From positions 1-48,892 of the forward strand of contig CACYBB010000015.1 in the NCBI GenBank assembly GCA_902772585.1: a stretch of DNA of 48,892 bases. Reading direction: 5' to 3'. The position numbers and the translations under genes are program-made. The stretch is from an uncultured Bacteroidales bacterium (GTDB lineage Bacteria; Bacteroidota; Bacteroidia; Bacteroidales; Bacteroidaceae). The notes under the pieces are model-generated. The model was not told the DNA's origin. It did not search any database and saw only the letters and a list, made by a program, of their open reading frames with translations. This document shows, in pieces, positions 397 through 44,906 of this stretch (position 1 is its first letter; each line of letters begins with the position of its first letter).

Positions 397-2172
397 TTAA
401 ATCTCCAGCATCATCTTATCGACATCCATGCCTGGAGGTGTCATAGGCAGTACGTCATCGTCTTCCTTGATGGCACACTCCAAAAGGAACGGACCCTTGG
501 TGGCCAGCATCTTCTCGACAGCAGCAGCCAAATCCTTACGGTCGGTGACTGCGATATAGGGGATGCCATAACCCTGTGCGATAGGTTCGTAGCAGGGATT
601 CATCATCTTGGTGAACGACTTACGACGCATCCAGAACATATCCTGCCACTGGCGCACATTGCCCAAGTAGTGGTTGTTCAGGAGAATCATCTTGACAGGG
701 GCTTGCTGCTCCATGATGGTACCCAACTCCTGGATATTCATCTGGAAACCACCATCGCCCATGAAACAGCAGACGGTACGATCGGTAGCGAAGGTGGCAC
801 CAATGGCGGCAGGCATGCCGTAACCCATCGTGCCCAGACCACCGCTGGTACAGATGCTGCGCTGCTGGGTGTATTTGAAATAACGGGTGGCAAAGAGCTG
901 ATTCTGACCAACATCGGTGACCAGCACTGTGCCATCGGGAACCTGCTGGGCAACGGCATTGACCACCTCGCCCATCAGCAGCGGACCACTGGCAGGATGG
1001 ATAGCGGGCTCGATGACCATGGTACGCTCCTTGGCGTCGAGCTCACGGAACGAGTCGCGCCACTCCTGATGGTTATTCTTATTCAGCAGGGCCGTCAAAG
1101 CGGGCAGTGACTCCTTACAGTCGGCAACGACAGCCACGTGGGTCTTAACATTCTTGTCAATCTCTGAACGGTCGATATCGAGGTGGATAATCTTGGCCTG
1201 CTTGGCGTAGGTCTTCAGATTGCCCGTCACACGATCAGAGAAGCGCATGCCGATAGCGATGAGCACGTCGCACTGCTGTTCCTTCAGGTTGACGGCATAG
1301 TTGCCGTGCATGCCCAGCATACCGACGTTGAGCGGATGGTTAGAAGGCAATGCGGAGAGGCCCAGCATGGTACGACCAGCAGGGATATCGGCCTTCTCGA
1401 GGAACGCCTTCAACTCCTCCTGGGCATTACCCAGTTCGACACCCTGACCAACGAGTGCCAAGGGTTTCTTGGCATTGTTGATGAGTTCGGCAGCCTCGCG
1501 AACAGCCTCGTGGTCGAGTTTAGGATAAGGAACATACGAGCGGACGAAATCAACCTTCTTGGGTTCCCAGTCAATCTCCTCAACCTGCGCATTCTTGGTG
1601 AAGTCGAGCACTACAGGACCAGGACGACCCGTGCGAGCAATGTAGAACGCACGACTGACAGCCCAAGCCACATCGGCAGCATGACGAATCTGGTAGGACC
1701 ACTTGGAGATAGGCTGAGAAACGCCTACGAGGTCAACCTCCTGGAAAGCATCGGTACCCAGTGCAGAGATGGGCACCTGTCCGGCAATGACCACCATCGG
1801 TGTGGAGTCCATCATGGCATCGGCAATACCCGTCAAGGTATTGGTAACACCAGGACCACTGGTGACAAGTGCCACACCCACATCGCCTGAGACGCGTGCA
1901 TAGCCCTCAGCAGCATGGACGGCACCTTGTTCATGGCGCACCAGAATGTGGTCGAAACACTTCTTCTCGCCTCGTGTATAGTCGAAGAGCGCATCGTAGG
2001 TAGGCATAATGCTACCACCAGGGTAACCGAAGATGGTCTTGACACCTTCTGCCTGTAATGCGCGCATCAACGCTTTTGCTCCTGTTATTTTGTCTTTCAG
2101 GGCCACACCCCCCTGCCCCTCCCTGGGAGTGAGGGGAGTAGATACTCCTTTCGCTTCTATTTCTTTCTTCAT
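397..2172 (-). CDS. ilvB: Acetolactate synthase large (catalytic) subunit
   Basis: Thiamine-diphosphate enzyme that condenses two pyruvates, or pyruvate with 2-oxobutyrate, in valine/leucine and isoleucine synthesis. At 591 residues the length is normal. Visible landmarks are the N-terminal Pyr domain with the catalytic Glu in RHEQGAVHAAEGYAR (E81), the central domain, and the C-terminal PP domain with the TPP/Mg motif GDGGFQMNIQELGT followed by NN. The family-like sequence begins at about residue 26 (KDKITGAKALMRAL). Residues 1-25, including EAKGVSTPLTPREGQGG, come from a repeat element (2101-2230) and resemble the IlvN N-terminus. The start codon at 2170-2172 is inside that element. The gene lies between ilvD (60 bases upstream) and ilvN. 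Confidence 0.96.
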   Translation of the reverse strand: MKKEIEAKGVSTPLTPREGQGGVALKDKITGAKALMRALQAEGVKTIFGYPGGSIMPTYDALFDYTRGEKKCFDHILVRHEQGAVHAAEGYARVSGDVGVALVTSGPGVTNTLTGIADAMMDSTPMVVIAGQVPISALGTDAFQEVDLVGVSQPISKWSYQIRHAADVAWAVSRAFYIARTGRPGPVVLDFTKNAQVEEIDWEPKKVDFVRSYVPYPKLDHEAVREAAELINNAKKPLALVGQGVELGNAQEELKAFLEKADIPAGRTMLGLSALPSNHPLNVGMLGMHGNYAVNLKEQQCDVLIAIGMRFSDRVTGNLKTYAKQAKIIHLDIDRSEIDKNVKTHVAVVADCKESLPALTALLNKNNHQEWRDSFRELDAKERTMVIEPAIHPASGPLLMGEVVNAVAQQVPDGTVLVTDVGQNQLFATRYFKYTQQRSICTSGGLGTMGYGMPAAIGATFATDRTVCCFMGDGGFQMNIQELGTIMEQQAPVKMILLNNHYLGNVRQWQDMFWMRRKSFTKMMNPCYEPIAQGYGIPYIAVTDRKDLAAAVEKMLATKGPFLLECAIKEDDDVLPMTPPGMDVDKMMLEI

Positions 2173-2231: not shown

Positions 2232-4037
2232 TTAGTCGATGATTCTTACTCCACCCTTATCGGCACTCGAAACGCTTTGGGCATAGGCACGGAGAGCCTT
2301 GCTGACCACACGGTTACGACGCAGGGGCTGTTGGGGACGTGCGGCGAGTTCGTCGTCGCTGAGTTTCACATTGATAGAACGGTTGGGGATGTCGATGACA
2401 ATGATGTCGCCATCCTTGATTTTGCCAATGTTACCACCAGCAGCAGCCTCAGGAGAGATGTGTCCGATAGACAGACCACTGGTACCACCCGAGAAGCGAC
2501 CATCAGTAATCAGGGCACACTCTTTACCCATGTGCATCGACTTGATATAACTGGTGGGATAGAGCATCTCCTGCATGCCAGGACCACCCTTCGGACCTTC
2601 GTGGGTGATGACCACGCAGTCGCCTTTCTTCACCTTGCCACCCAGAATTCCCTCGCAGGCATCTTCCTGAGAGTCGAAGACAACGGCAGGACCTTCGAAG
2701 TGCCAGAGACTCTCGTCAACGCCAGCAGTCTTCACTACGCAACCATCCTGTGCGATATTGCCAAAGAGCACTGCCAATCCGCCATCCTTGGTGTAGGCGT
2801 GTTCGAGGTCGCGGATACAACCATTGGCACGATCAGTATCGAGACTCTCCCACTCTTCCGACTGCGAACCCATCTTCGTTGAGAAGCGGTTGCCTGGAGC
2901 GGAATAGTAAATACTAGTAGCACTAGTCTCACTAGTAGCACTAGTAATATTGTACTTCTCCATTGCCTCGCCCAGCGTCATACCATCCACACGGGGTGCA
3001 GAGCCGTCAATGAGACCACCTTTATTGAGTTCGTTGAGGATACCCAAGATACCACCTGCACGACCACACTCCTGAACAGAGTACTTCTGTGTATTAGGAG
3101 CCAGTTTGCAGAGGCAGGGTACCTTACGGCTCAGGGCGTCAATATCCTTCATGGTGAAGTCGGCACCAGCCTCCTGAGCCACAGCCAACAGGTGAAGCAC
3201 GGTATTCGTAGAACCACCCATCGCAATATCCAGCGACATAGCATTCATAAAGGCCTTGCGGGTAGCAATATTGCGAGGCAGCACGCTCTCATCGCCATCC
3301 TCATAATAGGCAAAGGCGTTCTTGACAATCTGACGAGCAGCAGCCTTGAACAGTTCGATGCGGTTGGTATGGGTAGCAAGGATGGTTCCGTTGCCAGGCA
3401 ACGAGAGACCAATAGCCTCCGTCAGCGAGTTCATAGAGTTGGCCGTAAACATGCCTGAGCACGAGCCGCAACCTGGACAGGCACACGACTCAATCTCCTT
3501 CATCTCCTCATCAGAGACCTCAGGATCGGCACCCTTCACCATCGCTGTAATCAGGTCGGCATTCTCACCACGCCAGCGACCAGCCTCCATCGGACCACCC
3601 GAGCAGAACACGGCAGGAATATTCAGGCGCATAGCAGCCATCAGCATTCCTGGCGTCACCTTGTCGCAGTTGGAGATGCAAATCATGGCATCAGCCTTGT
3701 GGGCGTTGACCATATATTCTACGCTGTCAGCAATGATGTCGCGCGAAGGCAGTGAATAGAGCATGCCATCATGGCCCATCGCAATACCATCGTCGATGGC
3801 AATGGTATTGAACTCAGCGGCATAACAGCCCATCTTCTCGATTTCCTCACGAACAATCTGACCAATCTCATGCAGGTGCGTATGACCAGGCACAAACTGT
3901 GTGAACGAGTTGACGATGGCAATAATGGGTTTGCCAAACTGCTCATGTTTCATACCTGTGGCCACCCAAAGTGCTCTGGCGCCAGCCATTCTTCTGCCTT
4001 CTGTACACACTGCACTGCGTAACTGATGCTTTCCCAT
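2232..4037 (-). CDS. ilvD: Dihydroxy-acid dehydratase
   Basis: Iron-sulfur dehydratase that converts 2,3-dihydroxy-isovalerate and 2,3-dihydroxy-3-methylvalerate to the 2-oxoacids, the penultimate step to Val and Ile. The 601 residues match the family length. Cluster and metal motifs are visible: [29 protein letters not shown] and the C-terminal [15 protein letters not shown]. It is the first gene of the ilvD-ilvB-ilvN operon, with a well-formed promoter 40-70 bases upstream. At residues about 365-376 the reading frame passes through four ACTAGT units at exact 9-bp spacing (2913-2945), read as [12 protein letters not shown]. This region joins two conserved parts of the family and is probably a tolerated surface loop. 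Confidence 0.97.
2913..2945. repeat. In-frame 9-bp tandem repeat of ACTAGT units in ilvD
   Basis: ACTAGT occurs at 2913, 2922, 2931 and 2940, a perfect 9-bp period separated by AGC, CTC and AGC. Each unit is itself a palindrome, so the block is also nearly palindromic as a whole. The period of three codons keeps the ilvD frame. Confidence 0.9.
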
Positions 4038-36380: not shown

Positions 36381-37047
36381 ACCATTCAGTTAATAATCCA
36401 CGGGGAATACCACGCTTGACGGCAGCATCAAGCACACGACGCGCCTCTTTCCTGCGCTCCAAGACCAGCAACAAATCGACATGCGACACCACATAGGTCG
36501 GGTCTTTAGGTGCCAACTCTTCTGCCTTCTGCCAGTCATAGAGCGCCACCTCGTCTTGCTTCATCTGGCGTTCCAGATTGGCACGAGCGGCATAGGCAAC
36601 TGCTGAGTCGGCATGCTGCTGGATAAGTTGGTTCAGATTGTCAAGAGCATCTTGTTTACGTCCCAACTGTTGCAGCACCACCGCCAGCGACAAGCGGGCC
36701 TCGAAATGTGCAGGAGCAATCGCCAACAGGTCGTTGAGGTCGTTGCGCGACAACTCGAAACGGCGCAGATGGGTATTGGCATAGGCACGATAGAACAAAG
36801 CCGCAGGGTTGTGGGGTTCCTTCTGCAGCACAAGATTATACTCATCGATAGCATACTGCCATTGCTTCAGTTGCAGGTTGGCATTGGCCTTGCGCAAGCG
36901 CAGGTCTGTTGACCATGCCGACTCCGCTATCTGCTTGTTGATAGCCGTCAGCGAGTCGCGCCAGTTTTCCTGTGCCTGTCCCGTCTGTTGCCATGCTATG
37001 GCAACAAACAAAAGCATCACGCCTTTTCGATATACTCTACAATCCAT
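36361..37047 (-). CDS. Exported tetratricopeptide-repeat protein
   Basis: A 228-residue TPR protein with an N-terminal signal-like segment ([20 protein letters not shown]). Four or five TPR units span about residues 45-215 ([60 protein letters not shown]). Two starts are possible. The ATG at 37045-37047 gives a basic n-region before the hydrophobic stretch. The ATG at 37015-37017 shares a base with the leuB stop (TGATG) and would be coupled. I list the longer form because its signal peptide looks complete. The role is unknown. Confidence 0.82.
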
Positions 37048-38078
37048 TGTCCTACTTCTTTTGTTCCATATTTCTTGCCACCCTTGACTTGGATTTCAGG
37101 GGTGCGAACGTTAGCATCCAGCGAAGCATTGACGGCCTCACGAACGAGGGCGCCCTCACGCTCCAGTCCGAAGTGCTCCAGCAGCATAGCGGCAGACAGT
37201 ATCTGTGCCAACGGATTGGCAAGGTTCTGACCAGCAGCCTGAGGCCATGAACCGTGAACGGGTTCGAAGAGTGGTGTGTGCTCACCCAGCGACGACGAGG
37301 GCTGGAGACCCATAGAACCCGTGATGCAGGAGGTCTCGTCGGTCAGGATGTCACCAAAGGTATTCTCCGTCACGATGACATCAAAGAAACGGGGCTCCGT
37401 GAGTACACGCATCGAGGCGTTATCGATGAACATATAGTCGGTGGTGACCTCAGGATACTGGGGCTCCATCTCCTTGGCTATCTGACGCCACAGACGGCTG
37501 GACGCCAAGACGTTAGCCTTATCGACAACGGTCAAGTGCTTGCGACGCGTCATGGCTATCTCGAAAGCAACCTTCAGGATGCGCTCAATCTCAGGACGCG
37601 TATAAACATTGGTGTCGAAGGCCATATCGTTGTCCTGATGCTTCTCACCAAAATACATGCCCCCCGTCAGTTCACGAATGACCACGAAATCGGCACCACG
37701 CAACAGTTCCTCCTTCAGCGGCGACTTGTGCAGCAGGCAATCGAACGTGGCCACAGGACGGATGTTGGCAAAGAGTCCAAGCTTCTTGCGCATAGCCAGC
37801 AAACCTGTCTCAGGACGCATCTTCAGCGTGGGATTATTGTCGTATTTCAGGTCGCCAACGGCAGCAAACAAGACTGCATCAGCACGCATACAGACATCAT
37901 GGGTCGTATCTGGATAGGCATCGCCACAGGCATCAATAGCACAGGCACCCACCAGCGCTTCCTCATATTCAAACTCGTGACCACACTTCTTGGCAATGGC
38001 GTTCATTACAGCCACACCTTGTTTCATAATCTCTGGGCCAATGCCGTCACCAGCCAATACCGCAATTTTTAGTTTCAT
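37017..38078 (-). CDS. leuB: 3-isopropylmalate dehydrogenase
   Basis: NAD-dependent oxidative decarboxylase of leucine synthesis, 353 residues, standard length. Landmarks: [16 protein letters not shown], the substrate Arg region [37 protein letters not shown], the [28 protein letters not shown] block, and [19 protein letters not shown]. If the preceding gene is a citramalate synthase, the same enzyme would also oxidise 3-methylmalate for isoleucine. It starts 15 bases after the LeuA-family paralogue. Confidence 0.97.
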
Positions 38079-38093
38079 ATTATTTATTTTTCG

Positions 38094-39659
38094 TTATTTC
38101 GTTAAATCGTTTTCAATAATGTTCAGCATCTTGAATGTCGCCTTGATGGCAGCTTCCGTCTGGTCAGCATCAAGGCCGCGTGTACGCAACAAGCCGTCCT
38201 TGTAGTGCCATGAGATGACCGTTTGCACCAAGGCATCAGTACGACCACCAGGGGGAATACTGACCTGATAGTTGGCCAACGTGGGGAAGGTGCGGTCAAG
38301 ATATTTCTTATAGATGTGGCGCAGGGCTTTTACGAAAGCGTCATACTGACCATCGCCAACCGCACTTCCTTCAAACTCCTGACCATTGATTTCCACCTTG
38401 ATATTTGCACCTGGCTTCAGGCCATAGGCAGTTGTAACGATATAGCTAATCAACTTGACCTTATCCTCAGAACCGTCGTGTTTCAAGACGTCGCTGACGA
38501 TATAGGGCAGGTCTTCCTGAGTCACGATTTCCTTCTTGTCGCCCAGTTCCGTGATGCGCTCCGTCACACGACGCGTCTGCTCGGGAGTCAGTTCCAGTCC
38601 GAGTTCCTCGAGGTTCTTGGCAATATTGGCCTTTCCGCTATTCTTACCCAGCGCATACTCACGCTTACGACCGAATCGCTCAGGCATCAATTCGTTATAA
38701 TACAGCTTGTCTTTCGTGTCGCCATCGGCATGCACGCCTGCCACCTGCGTAAAGACGTTCTCACCAACAATCGGCTGATTGGGGGCAACACTAATACCGC
38801 TGAAACTCTCGACCATTCGAGAGAGGTCGTTCAACTGGCTCTCCACAATATTCGTCTTGGCATGGAACTGGTCCTTCAGGATAGCCTGCACGGAGGCCAT
38901 CGGCGCATTGCCGCAACGCTCCCCCAGCCCATTGACGGTGACGTGCAAACCACGAGCACCACTCAACACGGCCGCCAGCGAGTTAGAAACCGCAAGGTCG
39001 TAGTCGTTATGGGCATGGAAATCGAAATGCGTCTCAGGATAGCGCTTCATCATCTTGCGGAAATACTCGATGACCTGCAGGGGATTCATCACACCCAAGG
39101 TATCAGGCAGCATGAAACGCTTGATATTCGTTGCCACCAACTCGTCCATCAACTGATAGACGTATTCGGGCGAATCCTTCATACCGTTAGACCAGTCTTC
39201 CAAATACAGATTCACGCTGATGCCCTTGCTGGCAGCATATTCTAACTCCTTCTTGATGTCGCTGATGTGCTCCTCGGGGGTCTTGTGCAACTGGTGGGTG
39301 CAATGCTTCAGCGAGCCCTTCGCCAACAAGTTGACGACCTTTCCGCCACACTCGGCAATCCAGTCTATCGACTTGCCGCCATCCACGAAGCCCAACACCT
39401 CGACACGCTCCAGCAGTCCGTTCTTCTGGGCATAGGTGCATATCTTGGTAACGGCCTCACGCTCGCCTTCCGATACACGCGCCGATGCAATCTCGATACG
39501 ATCGACGTTGACATCAGACAACAGCTTACGAGCCATCACCAGTTTCTCATGAGGCAGGAACGAAACGCCATTGGTCTGTTCACCATCGCGCAACGTAGCG
39601 TCCATAATCTCTACGAAGGGCACCATGCGCTGATATGTATTTACCTCCTCTGCTCCCAT
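38094..39659 (-). CDS. LeuA-family acyltransferase, probably (R)-citramalate synthase
   Basis: A 521-residue second member of the isopropylmalate/citramalate/homocitrate synthase family. The DRE-TIM barrel has MDATLRDGEQTNGVSF, the metal motif HAHNDYDLAVSN, and VNGLGERCGNAP. GKNSGKANI and a C-terminal LeuA regulatory domain (about 390-520) follow. Since the operon already has a canonical leuA, this copy is best explained as a citramalate synthase (pyruvate + acetyl-CoA), whose product LeuCD and LeuB can convert to 2-oxobutyrate. The sequence cannot prove the substrate. The ATG at 39657-39659 overlaps leuD by 19 bp; a second ATG 11 codons later, just before VPFVEIMD, is an equally possible start. 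Confidence 0.85.
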   Translation of the reverse strand: MGAEEVNTYQRMVPFVEIMDATLRDGEQTNGVSFLPHEKLVMARKLLSDVNVDRIEIASARVSEGEREAVTKICTYAQKNGLLERVEVLGFVDGGKSIDWIAECGGKVVNLLAKGSLKHCTHQLHKTPEEHISDIKKELEYAASKGISVNLYLEDWSNGMKDSPEYVYQLMDELVATNIKRFMLPDTLGVMNPLQVIEYFRKMMKRYPETHFDFHAHNDYDLAVSNSLAAVLSGARGLHVTVNGLGERCGNAPMASVQAILKDQFHAKTNIVESQLNDLSRMVESFSGISVAPNQPIVGENVFTQVAGVHADGDTKDKLYYNELMPERFGRKREYALGKNSGKANIAKNLEELGLELTPEQTRRVTERITELGDKKEIVTQEDLPYIVSDVLKHDGSEDKVKLISYIVTTAYGLKPGANIKVEINGQEFEGSAVGDGQYDAFVKALRHIYKKYLDRTFPTLANYQVSIPPGGRTDALVQTVISWHYKDGLLRTRGLDADQTEAAIKATFKMLNIIENDLTK

Positions 39660-40234
39660 GCTTCTATCTTATTTTTATTTGCCACGAGGAAATCGATATC
39701 GTCCAATCCGTTCATCAGACAATGCTTCTTGTAGCCGTTGATATCAAAGTGCTCAGAATGGCCCGTCGTGAGATTGGTAACCGTCTGGTTGGGCAGATCA
39801 ACCTCGACCTGAGCATCAGGATTGTCTTGAATGGTTGAAAACAATTCAGACAGGAAAGCTTCTGATACCTGCACGGGCAACACGAAATTATTCAGTTCGT
39901 TGTTCTTGTGGATATCGGCGAAGAACGACGAGATAACCACGCGGAATCCATAGCCCGCAATGGCCCAAGCAGCATGTTCACGCGAAGAGCCAGAACCGAA
40001 GTTCTTGCCAGCCACGAGGATGCAGCCCTTATACTGGGGGTTGTTAAGGACAAAATCCTCATTCAACGAGCCATCGGCCTTATATCGCCAGTCGCGAAAC
40101 AGGTTGTCGCCAAAGAACTTCTCCTCCTTGGTGGTTGCCTTGAGGAAGCGTGCGGGGATAATCTGGTCGGTGTCCACATTCTCCAACGGAAGGGGCACAC
40201 AAGTCGATGTTATGATGTCAAATTTCTGTTTCAT
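39641..40234 (-). CDS. leuD: 3-isopropylmalate dehydratase small subunit
   Basis: A 197-residue aconitase-fold swivel subunit. Signatures: [15 protein letters not shown] near the start, [25 protein letters not shown] in the middle, and [19 protein letters not shown] near the C-terminus. It overlaps leuC by 4 bp (ATGA), as is usual for subunits made in equal amounts. With LeuC it isomerises 2- to 3-isopropylmalate, and probably also citramalate. Confidence 0.97.
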
Positions 40235-41607
40235 AATAGTGTTCTTGGGTCGGTTATTACTCCTGTGACGGCAGCTGCGGCTGCTACTAAAGGCGATGCA
40301 AGGATGGTGCGCGAACCAGGTCCCTGACGACCCTCAAAATTGCGGTTCGAGGTAGAAACGGCATACTTACCAGCAGGCACCTTGTCATCGTTCATAGCGA
40401 GGCAAGCCGAACAGCCAGGCTGACGAATTTCGAAGCCTGCATCTGCCAGCACTTTATCAAGACCTTCGGCCTCTATCTGCTGACGAACAACCCATGAACC
40501 GGGCACCAGCCAAGCCACAACGTTATCAGCCTTCTTGCGACCCTTGACGATAGAGGCAAAGGCGCAGAAGTCCTCAATGCGGCCATTGGTACAAGCACCC
40601 AAGAACACGTAATCAATAGGTTTGCCTAAGAGACACTCGCCAGCCTTGAAACCCATATACTGCAGGGCTTTCTCGAAGTTGGCATCACCACTCGCAGGAA
40701 TGGACTCCGTAATACCAATGCCCATACCTGGATTGGTGCCATAAGTGATACGTGGCTCGATATCCTTGGCATCGAACACCAGTTCCTTGTCGAAAATGGC
40801 ATCGTCGCCACTCTTCAGCGTCTTCCAATAGGCAACGGCTCTCTCCCACTCTTCACCCTTAGGGGCATATTCTTTACCTTTGATATAATCAAAGGTCACC
40901 TCATCGGGGGCAATAAAACCACCACGGGCACCCATCTCTATCGATAGGTTGCAAAGCGTCAGACGACCCTCCATGGAGAGGTTTTTAACCACCTCACCAG
41001 CATACTCGACAAAATAACCTGTAGCACCACTAGTGGTCAATTGCGCCATCAGGTACAGCGCGACGTCCTTCGCTGTCACGCCCTTAGCAAGCGTACCGTT
41101 AATCGTGATGCGCATCGATTTGGGTTTCTGTTGCAGAATGCATTGGGAAGCCATCACCATCTCTACCTCCGACGTGCCAATACCAAAGGCCACAGCGCCC
41201 ATCGCGCCATGCGTGGACGTGTGGGAGTCGCCACAGACGATGGTCATACCAGGCAGCGACAGTCCCTTTTCAGGACCTACCACATGAATGATGCCGTTGT
41301 CCTTGGAATACATGCCGAAATGCTTCAAACCGAAATCTTGGGCATTCTGCGCCAACGTGGCAACCTGCTTGGCAGAAATAGGGTCTTCGATGGGCTTGTC
41401 CTGATCATGGGTTGGCGTGTTGTGGTCGGGCATGCAGACAATCTGCTCGGGACGGAAACACTTCAGTCCCCTACTCCGCATACCCTCGAAGGCTTGCGGA
41501 GAGGTCACCTCATGGCAATAGAGGCGGTCAATATAGAGTTGTGTGGGACCATCGTCAACAACCTGTACGACGTGCTTGTCCCATATTTTATCGAAAAGTG
41601 TATTCAT
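40231..41607 (-). CDS. leuC: 3-isopropylmalate dehydratase large subunit
   Basis: A 458-residue [4Fe-4S] subunit. Landmarks: [46 protein letters not shown], the cluster Cys in [13 protein letters not shown], and GCSACLAMN. The C-terminus [17 protein letters not shown] is typical. It overlaps leuA by 4 bp upstream and leuD by 4 bp downstream. Confidence 0.97.
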
Positions 41608-43109
41608 TCGTCTTTCTGCTTAAATTTATTGATACAGTCGATATAAGCCTCAACGCTGGCAGTAACGATATCGGTATTGGCGCCAAAGCCATAGTAGAGA
41701 CTGCCGTCGTACTCTACCTGCATATGCACCTTACCAACATCGTCCGAGCCCTTGGAGATTGCCTGAATGGTAAACTCCTTCAGCGTCATCTGCTTCATGA
41801 TAATCTTCTTCAGCGCCTTAATGGCTGCATCGACAGGACCATTACCAGAGGCTGCAGCCTCGAACTTCTGACCAGAAATATCAAGTCCAATAGAGGCCAC
41901 ACTCTTTACGCCCTTACCTGTGGTAACCTGCAGGAAGTCGAGGCGAACAGCATGGGTATCGGCCGTATCAGCACCTGCCAACATCAAGGCATCGGCATCG
42001 GACACCTCCTTCTTCTGGTCGGCCAGCACAAGGAACTTCTCGTAAATCTTATCGAGTTTCTCCTCCGTGAGGTCAACACCATTCACATGCAGACGATGCT
42101 TCAAGGCTGCACGTCCACTACGAGCTGTTAGTACAATGCTGTTATCATCGATGCCCACATCCTTGGGATCCATAATCTCATAGGTATGCACATTCTTCAG
42201 CACACCATCTTGATGGATGCCGCTGGAGTGTGCAAAGGCATTACGCCCAACAATGGCTTTATTGGGCTGGATAGGCATATTCATCAGACTCGACACCATA
42301 CGACTGGTAGGATAAATCTTAGTGGTATTGATGTTCGTCTCGATGCCCAATCCCTTGTGACACTTCAGAATCATCGCAATCTCTTCGAGCGAGGTGTTAC
42401 CTGCGCGCTCACCAATACCATTGATGGTCACCTCCACTTGACGGGCACCCGCCATCACTCCATTGAAGGTGTTGGCAGTAGCCATTCCCAAATCATTATG
42501 ACAATGGGTTGAGATGATGGCACAATCAATATTATCGACATGCTCTTTCAGATATTTGATTTTATCAAAATACTCCTGAGGCAAGCAATAGCCAGTGGTA
42601 TCGGGGATATTGACAACAGTAGCGCCAGCCTTGATAACGGCCTCAACGACACGTGCCAGATACTCATTATCTGTGCGACCTGCATCCTCACAATAGAACT
42701 CAACATCGTCCACAAAACGCTTGGCATACTTCGTAGCAGCAACAGCACGTTCCAGAATCTCTTCACGGGTAGAATTGAACTTAAACTTGATGTGCTCATC
42801 TGAGGTACCAATACCGGTGTGGATACGCTTGTGCTTAGCATACTTCAAAGCATCAAAAGCAACTTCGATATCACGCTCAACGGCACGAGTCAGCGCACAG
42901 ATAGTGGGCCACGTGACGGCCTTGGAAATCTCAATGACCGAATTGAAATCACCTGGAGAACTAATAGGAAAACCTGCCTCAATTACATCAACGCCTAACT
43001 GCTCAAGCGCCTTAGCTACCTGAATCTTCTCAACAGTATTCAACTGACAACCGGGCACCTGCTCGCCATCACGAAGTGTTGTGTCGAAAATAAACAATCT
43101 GTCACTCAT
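41604..43109 (-). CDS. leuA: 2-isopropylmalate synthase
   Basis: First enzyme of the leucine branch (2-oxoisovalerate + acetyl-CoA), 501 residues. The TIM barrel starts [17 protein letters not shown]; the metal motif is [14 protein letters not shown], and [15 protein letters not shown] and GIHQDGVLK follow. The C-terminal allosteric domain spans about 385-495. It is the first structural gene of the operon, 109 bases beyond the leader-peptide stop and downstream of the attenuator. Confidence 0.97.
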
Positions 43110-43149: not shown

Positions 43150-43192
43150 CAAAAACGAAAAAGCCTCTCTACACCCGGAAGTGAGAAAGGCT
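43150..43192 (-). terminator. Attenuator terminator before leuA
   Basis: On the minus strand, AGCCTTTCT pairs with AGAGAGGCT (one G-U), and CAC pairs with GUG around a TTCCGG loop (43162-43192). Runs TTTTT-CG-TTTTT follow immediately (43150-43161). No gene ends here; the hairpin lies between the leader peptide and leuA. Its 5' side contains TCACTTCCGG (43175-43184), exactly complementary to the leader segment at 43235-43244. Confidence 0.88.
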
Positions 43193-43218
43193 CTGTATCG
43201 TACTGTCTTATACCTTAA

Positions 43219-43299
43219 TTATATACATACCCTATCACTTCCGGCAGCTTTACGCAGTCGAATAATAATAATGGCGTTAATCAGATTAAGACTTTTCAT
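43219..43299 (-). CDS. Branched-chain amino acid leader peptide
   Basis: A 26-codon reading frame beginning MKSLNLINAIIIIRLRK and ending DRVCI. It has six Ile (four in a row at codons 10-13, all ATT), three Leu and one Val. The start lies 24 bases downstream of the -7 box, so it is the first open frame on the mRNA. Codons about 19-22 overlap an antiterminator segment. A ribosome stalled at the Ile run leaves that segment free; one that reaches the stop codon covers it. This is the classical layout of amino-acid attenuation. The mechanism is inferred from the sequence geometry. Confidence 0.85.
   Translation of the reverse strand: MKSLNLINAIIIIRLRKAAGSDRVCI
43235..43244 (-). promoter_or_regulatory. 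Antiterminator segment of the leu attenuator
   Basis: CCGGAAGTGA on the minus strand pairs over 10 bases with TCACTTCCGG at 43175-43184, the 5' half of the terminator. It starts 17 bases after the last of the four Ile codons, just outside a stalled ribosome. Confidence 0.8.
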
Positions 43300-43406: not shown

Positions 43407-44906
43407 TTATTGATGTTGGTCTCTCAACAAATCGTTGACGGTCTTAACAGGATTGAACGTGCCAAGAGGAACTTCCACAAAGACGGTAGACCAATTGCTC
43501 ATAGCACCATTCCACAAACCGGGAAGCTCCAATGCTTGCAGTTCCTTACCACTCTTTGACTTTTGTGAGATAAAGCCAGTGGTGGGATCAACAAACTTGG
43601 GCAGGTCGAAGGCATTGCCCTTATAGTCCTTCACAGCGCAGACAAGATCAACAGGATTGAAATGAGTGCCCTTGGTAAACATCTCCATATATTCCTTGTT
43701 CGACTTGTCAATCTGGCTGGACTCCAGAATCTGCAAACTAACAGTACCATCTTGGTTGTAGGTCAGGAACGGACCACCACCAGGCTCACCGACATTCTTC
43801 ACGACACCACAAACGCGCATCGGGCGATTCAGCTTCTCGCGCAGGTAAGCAGCATCAACCTTCTTACCCTTCGGATCGGTACAGAGATTCTTTTCTACAA
43901 ACTGAGCAATCTCGGCAATCTGTGCATCGGTAGCTCCTGCATCCAGCAGACGCAGATACTCGAATGCCTTCTGCTGCAGTTCTATCAGCACACCGGCAAT
44001 AATCTGCTTCCAGATAACTGTCTCGCTCTTAAGACGATCAGGAACGACATTATCAATATTCTTCACGAAGATAACATCAGCATCAATCTCGTTAAGATTC
44101 TCAATCAGAGCACCATGACCACCAGGACGGAACAACAGCGAACCATCTGAGTTGCGGAATGGGGTGCCGTCAGGATTAGCAGCAACTGTATCGGTACTGG
44201 GTTTCTGTTCAGAGAAACTAATATCATAGTGAACGCCAAACTTCTGAGCATACAAATCAGCTTTTTGAGCAACCTTCTGCTTGAAAAGCTCCATGTGCTC
44301 GTGAGATACAGTAAAATGCACATAAGCCTCACCATTGGATGCGGCATAAAGAGCACCTTCCACCAAGTGTTCCTCCATCGGAGTGCGTGGTCCCTCAGTA
44401 TAGTTGTGGAACAACAGCAAGCCCTTAGGCAACTGACCATAGTTCATTCCCTCAGCTTTCAGCATATTGGCAGCAACAGCCTTATAATTTCCTTCAGCCA
44501 TCAAAGCTCTAATACCTTTGCCATTATTCTTCTGGCAGACGGCATCGAGCTCGTCATAAAAGGCAAACTTCTCAATATTATCAAAATACTTCTTCTCGAA
44601 ATCAGTAGTGGGCTTGTCGTAGTCGGCATCGACAAAGGCAAACATATCCTTGAACATGCGGCTGGCTGCACCTGAGGCAGGTACAAACTTCACCACCTTC
44701 TTGCCTTGTGCCTTGTATTTCTGCCAAGCATCGACAAAGTGCTTACGCTCAGCATCATTGGGGGCAACAATACCACGACCGATAGCTGCAGCGGCCTCTA
44801 ACTTAAGAAATGGGAAACCAGTTTTAAACTGTCCGAGTTGGGTCTCAATCTGCTGCTCAGAGATTCCTTTCTGAGCAAGCTGTTTTAAATCTTGTTGTGT
44901 CAGCAT
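43407..44906 (-). CDS. DUF4301 family protein (nucleotidyltransferase-like)
   Basis: A 499-residue protein of a Bacteroidetes family of unknown function. KVVKFVPASGAASRMFKDMFAF (residues about 69-90) resembles the nucleotide-binding start of UDP-sugar pyrophosphorylases. FRPGGHGALIENLNEIDADVIFVKNIDNVVP (about 262-292) matches their second conserved block in style. KGLLLFHNY and RTPMEEHLVEGALYAA are further conserved-looking blocks. I infer a sugar-nucleotide or related nucleotidyltransferase fold; the substrate is unknown. It is monocistronic with a consensus promoter and a strong terminator. Confidence 0.85.
   Translation of the reverse strand: MLTQQDLKQLAQKGISEQQIETQLGQFKTGFPFLKLEAAAAIGRGIVAPNDAERKHFVDAWQKYKAQGKKVVKFVPASGAASRMFKDMFAFVDADYDKPTTDFEKKYFDNIEKFAFYDELDAVCQKNNGKGIRALMAEGNYKAVAANMLKAEGMNYGQLPKGLLLFHNYTEGPRTPMEEHLVEGALYAASNGEAYVHFTVSHEHMELFKQKVAQKADLYAQKFGVHYDISFSEQKPSTDTVAANPDGTPFRNSDGSLLFRPGGHGALIENLNEIDADVIFVKNIDNVVPDRLKSETVIWKQIIAGVLIELQQKAFEYLRLLDAGATDAQIAEIAQFVEKNLCTDPKGKKVDAAYLREKLNRPMRVCGVVKNVGEPGGGPFLTYNQDGTVSLQILESSQIDKSNKEYMEMFTKGTHFNPVDLVCAVKDYKGNAFDLPKFVDPTTGFISQKSKSGKELQALELPGLWNGAMSNWSTVFVEVPLGTFNPVKTVNDLLRDQHQ

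Follow-up and report, generated by a model that had tools for sequence, protein, structure and literature searches.

A predicted isoleucine/leucine leader-peptide attenuator upstream of the leu operon in an uncultured Bacteroidales bacterium and its relatives

The leu operon in the window, i.e. the whole 48,892-nucleotide stretch of DNA that was analysed, is preceded by an element that is very probably a transcription attenuator of the classical ribosome-mediated type, which senses the charged forms of tRNA-Ile and tRNA-Leu and controls leuA-leuC-leuD-cimA-leuB. The anatomy of the attenuator, its conservation and covariation, its codon bias and the logic of its folding are supported by computation, and from these we infer ribosome stalling, termination in vivo and coordination between ribosome and polymerase. 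The proposal of an Ile/Leu leader-peptide attenuator in front of the operon, made in the initial annotation, is supported by conserved reading frames and covarying helices, with the regulation itself presumed. The result is a well-delimited regulatory element before the leu operon in Prevotella, Bacteroides and related bacteria, which are abundant in gut and rumen and in which such elements are hardly annotated. The operon is predicted to respond to Ile as well as to Leu, the former because it carries a citramalate-synthase-like gene, and, since classical attenuation needs a ribosome close behind the RNA polymerase, the leader bears on transcription-translation coordination in Bacteroidota.

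All the elements named in the initial annotation were present in the window, on the minus strand and with coordinates exact to the base (Table 1). The 26-codon leader contains 6 Ile and 3 Leu codons and no Trp codon, matching the earlier description of four ATT, two further Ile and three Leu codons; it is a short reading frame rich in codons for the amino acids of the operon, the Ile part of this statement resting on the cimA-like assignment. The described stem with its T tract corresponds to an intrinsic terminator between the leader and the first structural gene, and a promoter-like sequence was found before the leader, as claimed. The segment CCGGAAGTGA (43244-43235) is a perfect complement of TCACTTCCGG (43184-43175), also as claimed, but the antiterminator had been drawn too short at 10 bases: AGGGT (43233-43229) additionally pairs with GCCTT (43191-43187) for a total of 15 bp, so that part of the terminator's own 5' arm is taken. 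In region 2, positions 43248-43242 (GCTGCCG) form the 3' arm of a 1:2 hairpin and 43244-43229 the 5' arm of the antiterminator, which lies directly past the control codons and whose formation excludes the terminator. The earlier scheme of leader, antiterminator and terminator therefore holds, but it overlooked the 1:2 helix, which is conserved in relatives and is imperfect in the window copy (5 of 7 pairs, two mismatches). There are thus three mutually exclusive helices, namely a weak 1:2 hairpin, the 2:3 antiterminator and the 3:4 terminator. The duplex between leader and terminator in the window was computed at -24.4 kcal/mol, whereas shuffled sequences averaged -11.2 (z -5.45), and 0 of 100 shuffles were as strong.

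Table 1. Features of the predicted attenuator and of the operon behind it, with gene names from NCBIfam models, and of a second leader in the same genome
Feature	Position	Strand	Basis or remark
Promoter-like TTTG-N20-TAACTTTG of the leader transcript	43354-43323	-	23 nt between its end and the ATG
Leader ORF MKSLNLINAIIIIRLRKAAGSDRVCI	43299-43219	-	26 codons plus TAA, ATG start; translated from the window
Control codons, four consecutive ATT (Ile)	43272-43261	-	read from sequence
Leu control codon CTG	43257-43255	-	second codon past the ATT run
Region 1, 5' arm of 1:2 hairpin, CGACTGC	43260-43254	-	covariation across relatives
Region 2	43248-43229	-	inside the leader ORF; arms of two overlapping helices
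Region 3	43191-43175	-	antiterminator 3' arm, also terminator 5' arm and loop
Terminator hairpin (3:4) and U-tract, GAGCCTTTCTCACTTCCGGGTGTAGAGAGGCTTTTT	43193-43158	-	-17.7 kcal/mol in the window
leuA, 2-isopropylmalate synthase	41604-43109	-	NF002086, 735 bits (cut-off 532); first regulated gene
leuC, 3-isopropylmalate dehydratase large subunit	40231-41607	-	TIGR00170, 624 bits (cut-off 560)
leuD, 3-isopropylmalate dehydratase small subunit	39641-40234	-	TIGR00171, 189 bits (cut-off 116)
cimA-like (citramalate-synthase-like) gene	38094-39659	-	best model NF042433, 637.8 bits
leuB, 3-isopropylmalate dehydrogenase	37017-38078	-	TIGR00169, 424 bits (cut-off 353)
Phe/Tyr leader of the same genome	L274 ~1337-1480, upstream of G000:C5:95160		same design in L252 and L256

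Conservation was assessed in leuA upstream regions. A LeuA search over 200 genus genomes found the gene in 153, 30 of which were taken as loci, and with 80 named records and 80 further stretches the set came to 190 regions (L001 being the window itself), the named records and other genomes partly overlapping. A scan detected a CC(C/T)TT-type hairpin followed by a T-run in 139 of these regions and no such terminator in the other 51, among which L003 is a false negative and L018 a contig end. There were 129 loci with a terminator within 200 nt of leuA and an open reading frame with at least 4 Ile/Leu codons. Before any selection on the antiterminator, 119 of the 129 had at most 5 of 100 dinucleotide shuffles with as strong a pairing (mean z -3.93), and removal of near-duplicates at 88% identity reduced these 119 to the 92 sequences of alignment A1, which were therefore chosen for terminator, Ile/Leu reading frame and antiterminator strength. 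An Ile/Leu-rich, ATG-started frame occupied the same position in 92 of 92 relatives, in part as a condition of entry, and the element was present in records named Bacteroides fragilis, Phocaeicola, Segatella and Marseilla, the leader of Bacteroides fragilis (L042) reading MNQSFIHILLCGIIILLAKVGGSECRA. Alignment upstream of leuA in Prevotella and Bacteroides, the check suggested for the original proposal, thus yielded conserved Ile/Leu-rich frames with covarying antiterminator and terminator stems. At one locus (L008) the leader follows closely downstream of the end of a gene that, from a motif, is presumably ilvC, suggesting an attenuator within a larger ilv-leu operon; at another (L019) it lies likewise close behind the end of a different gene.

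Across the 92 leaders there was a mean of 4.5 Ile and 3.8 Leu codons. The 14 codons before region 2 held on average 7.0 Ile and Leu codons in frame compared with 0.3 and 3.6 in the other two frames, a descriptive comparison given that the frame was picked for Ile and Leu. Codon choice provides a separate line of evidence, as CTA use was no selection criterion. Among the 59 of the 92 loci with leuA sequence, CTA made up 77 of 235 leader Leu codons (33%) versus 31 of 1874 (2%) in the leuA parts; by locus, its mean fraction was 0.323 in leaders and 0.017 in leuA, being higher in the leader at 49 loci, tied at 5 and lower at 5 (Wilcoxon p 3.7e-10). ATT similarly accounted for 228 of 268 leader Ile codons versus 838 of 2516 in leuA. 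For E. coli, one study argues that CUA is the most suitable Leu control codon (PMC1183508). The arm GGAAGTGA was kept although the reading frame across it varies, with 76, 13 and 3 of the 92 leaders in the respective frames, which indicates that it is maintained as RNA and not as peptide.

The sequence TTTG-N20-TAACTTTG before the leader is what we take to be the Bacteroidota-type promoter consensus, and both of its parts recur in relatives. In 85 of 92 leaders TAnnTTTG occurred no more than 55 nt from the leader ATG (3.05 expected by shuffling), and TTTG was found 16-26 nt upstream of TAnnTTTG in 83 of 88 scorable leaders (12.4 expected). Between terminator and leuA, TAnnTTTG was at chance level (1 of 92; 2.3 expected).

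Covariation was scored separately for each helix, because RNAalifold run on the alignment recovered the terminator only, as follows from three helices that exclude one another. The 1:2 helix, which had no part in the selection of the 92 sequences, was paired in 77.5% of cells, with two-sided changes at 6 of 8 pairs and a covariation score of 0.249 compared with 0.043-0.072 for slid partners. The 2:3 antiterminator was paired in 88.6% of cells with two-sided changes at 7 of 15 pairs (score 0.184, slid 0.043-0.096), and the 3:4 terminator in 94.3% with two-sided changes at 7 of 11 pairs (0.209, slid 0.036-0.144); the pairing percentages of these two helices are inflated, since the strength of both had been a criterion in selecting the sequences. 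For each of the three helices the score was reached by 0 of 500 shuffles, in a control that ignores the relatedness of the sequences. A coarser measure, the number of pairs with changes on both sides, was equalled or exceeded in 24 (1:2), 18 (2:3) and 4 (3:4) of 500 shuffles, and sliding 2:3 by one column gave 8 two-sided pairs versus 7 for the true register, but 30 versus 46 cells. A conserved 1:2 helix overlapping region 2 is therefore present in the family. It is weak, two of its eight columns being unpaired in 55 and 50 of the 92 sequences.

Folding of the 92 elements was computed with the ribosome represented as a mask of footprint size, 18 nt upstream and 12 nt from the A-site codon, a helix being counted where its occupancy exceeded one half. 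With the ribosome on the last Ile codon and the polymerase at the end of region 3, the antiterminator formed in 88 of 92 sequences. With the ribosome in the same position on full-length RNA it formed in only 43, so that the mechanism requires folding during synthesis. With the ribosome at the stop codon the terminator formed in 92 of 92 full-length RNAs, and the antiterminator in 8 with the polymerase at the end of region 3. In the absence of a ribosome the terminator formed in 89 full-length RNAs and the antiterminator in 61 with the polymerase at the end of region 3, indicating that termination without translation is not clearly enforced by the 1:2 helix. The distance from the ribosome edge to region 2 was 9 nt from the last Ile codon in 66 of 92 sequences and 3 nt from the last Leu codon in 69 of 92, leaving region 2 barely clear of a ribosome stalled on Ile or Leu. 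In the proposed sequence of events, RNA polymerase would start just below the promoter and a first ribosome would translate the leader. Where Ile or Leu is scarce, the ribosome would stall on the ATT run or the CTG that follows, covering region 1 and leaving region 2 just free to pair with region 3, and the resulting 15-bp antiterminator would take the 5' arm of the terminator and allow readthrough into the leu genes. Where both amino acids are plentiful, the ribosome would read on across region 2 as far as the stop codon, the antiterminator would come too late, and the 3:4 hairpin with its U-tract would end transcription near 43158.

The hairpin could in principle belong to its upstream neighbour, a gene on the same strand (43407-44906) for which it would serve only as a terminator, with the leuA promoter located below it and the short frame present by chance; intrinsic terminators are common between genes. 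That gene is, however, followed by a separate, strong hairpin (-20.7 kcal/mol) which ends 245 nt before leuA, and the leader promoter sits between the two hairpins. The chance-level frequency of TAnnTTTG between terminator and leuA, together with a leader, region 1 and region 2 that are conserved and covarying, makes this explanation extremely unlikely. It is just as improbable that the leader encodes a functional small protein to which the RNA structures are secondary. The peptide segment before region 2 (e.g. LLN-IIIIRL) is indeed conserved among close relatives, but the C-terminus shifts frame while the RNA arm beneath it stays, the same layout is found at other operons with other amino acids, and the codons are biased toward CTA and ATT.

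The choice between hairpins could also be made by a trans-acting factor or small molecule, as in a riboswitch, a T-box or the target of an RNA-binding protein, rather than by the ribosome. Competition between terminator and antiterminator is common to such systems, and the 61 sequences in which the antiterminator can form without a ribosome are compatible with them. A sensor of this kind nevertheless appears very unlikely: in the window no Rfam family scored as high as its gathering threshold, the control codons at different operons match the pathway in which the downstream gene acts, and the distance between control codons and region 2 hardly varies.

Among the closest known counterparts is the leuL leader of the leu operon in Escherichia coli and Salmonella, which likewise has CUA control codons and competing antiterminator and terminator. 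The present element differs from it in that Ile codons outnumber Leu codons, the operon holds a cimA-like gene, and the promoter follows the Bacteroidota-type consensus instead of the sigma-70 type. Within the same phylum, but at the trp operon, Rfam lists Bacteroid-trp (RF01692) as a cis-regulatory element of Bacteroidetes, and one publication describes it as resembling the E. coli Trp leader (PMC6414381). The RF01692 model gave 0 matches in the window and in the window's own genome, its control in Bacteroides ihuae being found, and in Rfam 15 there were 0 families at the gathering threshold across the 48,892 bases. For a different class of the phylum, a Flavobacterium psychrophilum transcriptome study reports strong clues for leader-peptide attenuation upstream of amino-acid operons (PMC9723704). 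A B. thetaiotaomicron transcriptome study mentions short reading frames reminiscent of leader peptides, with BT_4401 as an example, and states a lack of Shine-Dalgarno sequences in Bacteroides (PMC7366714). Attenuators with a branched-chain leader peptide ahead of a branched-chain operon have likewise been described for ilvD in Staphylococcus aureus (PMC5794164) and ilvBNC in Corynebacterium (PMC10272879), in other phyla and with other first genes. In the part accessible of Naville and Gautheret (2010), leader-peptide systems were then known to the authors only in Proteobacteria and Actinobacteria, and that part contains no mention of 'bacteroid'. No report of a leu attenuator in Bacteroidales appeared among the open-access matches listed, and an earlier prediction in Lopatovskaya et al. 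(2010) is possible. The suggestion that leader attenuation would be notable in Bacteroidales needs qualifying, as the mechanism is known in the phylum (RF01692, Flavobacterium); the leu/Ile element itself is hardly catalogued. The leu/Ile element is a new, well-supported case of a known mechanism that has a trp counterpart in the phylum.

A proposed explanation for the presence of Ile codons is that the operon also makes an Ile precursor by way of a citramalate-synthase-like enzyme. The fourth gene of the operon matched NF042433 ((R)-citramalate synthase CimA) at 637.8 bits compared with 361.5 for the next model, a 2-isopropylmalate synthase, but remained below the curated cut-off of 950 bits; it is named cimA-like here as the CimA model is by far the best while its cut-off is missed, and its CimA activity is putative. 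The threonine-deaminase regulatory domain PF00585 was absent from the window's genome (88% complete) and reached its cut-off in 5 of 60 genomes and in 0 of 36 in the genus, with one sub-threshold genus match. An IlvA query detected no IlvA-type threonine deaminase in the window's genome and matched 11 of 100 genus genomes at E 1e-15. The order leuA-leuC-leuD-cimA was seen in 18 of 19 further leuA places, with leuB next in 17 and none visible in the L309 stretch, and a leader was present in 17 of those 18 (all but G117). Since most of the 19 places had been chosen for having a leader, this shows cimA accompanying the leader and is not a correlation. In one genome (G047), leuA-leuC-leuD-leuB lacks cimA and has a bare promoter with no leader, and the cimA gene, which stands alone, is preceded by a promoter of its own, a leader MMQSTSQHIIISIIIRQPIVAGSV containing 7 Ile and 0 Leu codons, an antiterminator arm and a terminator; this layout, from a single genome, is the arrangement predicted by the cimA explanation. 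An IlvA relative and a match to R1, the covariance model of the leu leader element, occurred together in six genus genomes (G024, G042, G045 and G091, with weaker R1 matches in G053 and G065), so that the Ile codons can occur without IlvA loss.

R1 matched 109 genomes of the 200 in the genus; among the 85 good ones it matched 45, against 63 with leuA, so that the element is not universal. Matches numbered 69 among 295 genomes of the order, spread over 50 of 184 genera, and 21 among 296 genomes of the phylum. The filters were strict and miss weak matches, each count includes the window's genome and some genomes recur between searches. Seventy R1 loci were inspected, of which 33 lay before leuA, 30 before ilvD, 2 before pheA, 1 before cimA, 1 before a gltB-like gene and 3 without an assigned gene; these proportions carry little weight, as 30 loci came from the order search and the other 40 were selected manually, chiefly second places and weak matches. 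L224 and L238 represent a single place, and L247 and L248 have identical sequence. At L205 and L206, to which the script assigned no gene, direct inspection revealed the usual leader, and L254 stops at a contig end. Leaders before ilvD contain Val, Ile and Leu codons, mostly adding Val runs, and those before pheA contain Phe and Tyr codons. In the phylum search, 12 of 17 loci were examined, the leaders being read by eye and one gene per kind being checked against Pfam. There were Trp leaders before anthranilate synthase (L277, L278), a His leader before hisG (L287), Thr/Ile leaders before aspartokinase (L285, L289), an Ile leader before ilvA (L286) and a Met/Cys leader before a Cys/Met-metabolism enzyme. 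An R1 match before a gene with a GATase_2 domain (L268, the gltB-like case) had no evident pathway-matched codons and was not counted as a leader, and matches on the opposite strand at leaders (e.g. G131, G153) were taken as echoes of the palindromic terminator.

R1 thus points to attenuators at other amino-acid operons, which are candidates for RNA family libraries. It is possible, although we hold it only tentatively, that Bacteroidota share one versatile leader-peptide attenuator design in which the frame of regions 2, 3 and 4 is kept and the control codons are swapped from operon to operon. Such a design would cover the joint sensing of Ile and Leu in connection with cimA, serial modules and control by Met/Cys. 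In that case the ribosome would closely trail the transcribing polymerase in a phylum that mostly initiates translation without Shine-Dalgarno sequences.

Further leaders were noted in passing. The window's genome contains a second one of the same design, a Phe/Tyr leader (MNMLNAYFYGYYFYFTSNCEAVGRM) followed by a strong terminator, upstream of the prephenate dehydratase gene pheA (Table 1). The ilvD-ilvB operon of the window (2232-4037 and 397-2172, minus strand) has no leader, only a promoter-like TATCTTTG, unlike relatives in other families, which do have a branched-chain leader before ilvD. A conserved leader beginning MMQMCMMMCC, with a terminator, lies approximately 100-330 nt upstream of a Cys/Met-metabolism PLP enzyme gene (L292-L298) in 7 of 8 gene-matching genomes of one family, the upstream region of the eighth (L299) not having been located by the script; judged from its sequence, this element resembles an attenuator responding to Met/Cys. 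Modules of leader plus terminator occur twice in succession at L266 (ilvD), L276 (an ilvE-kind aminotransferase), L279 (the same kind of gene by resemblance), L280 and L284, some of these modules having Ile-only leaders, and the small genes behind them in L280 and L284 are presumably ilvN.
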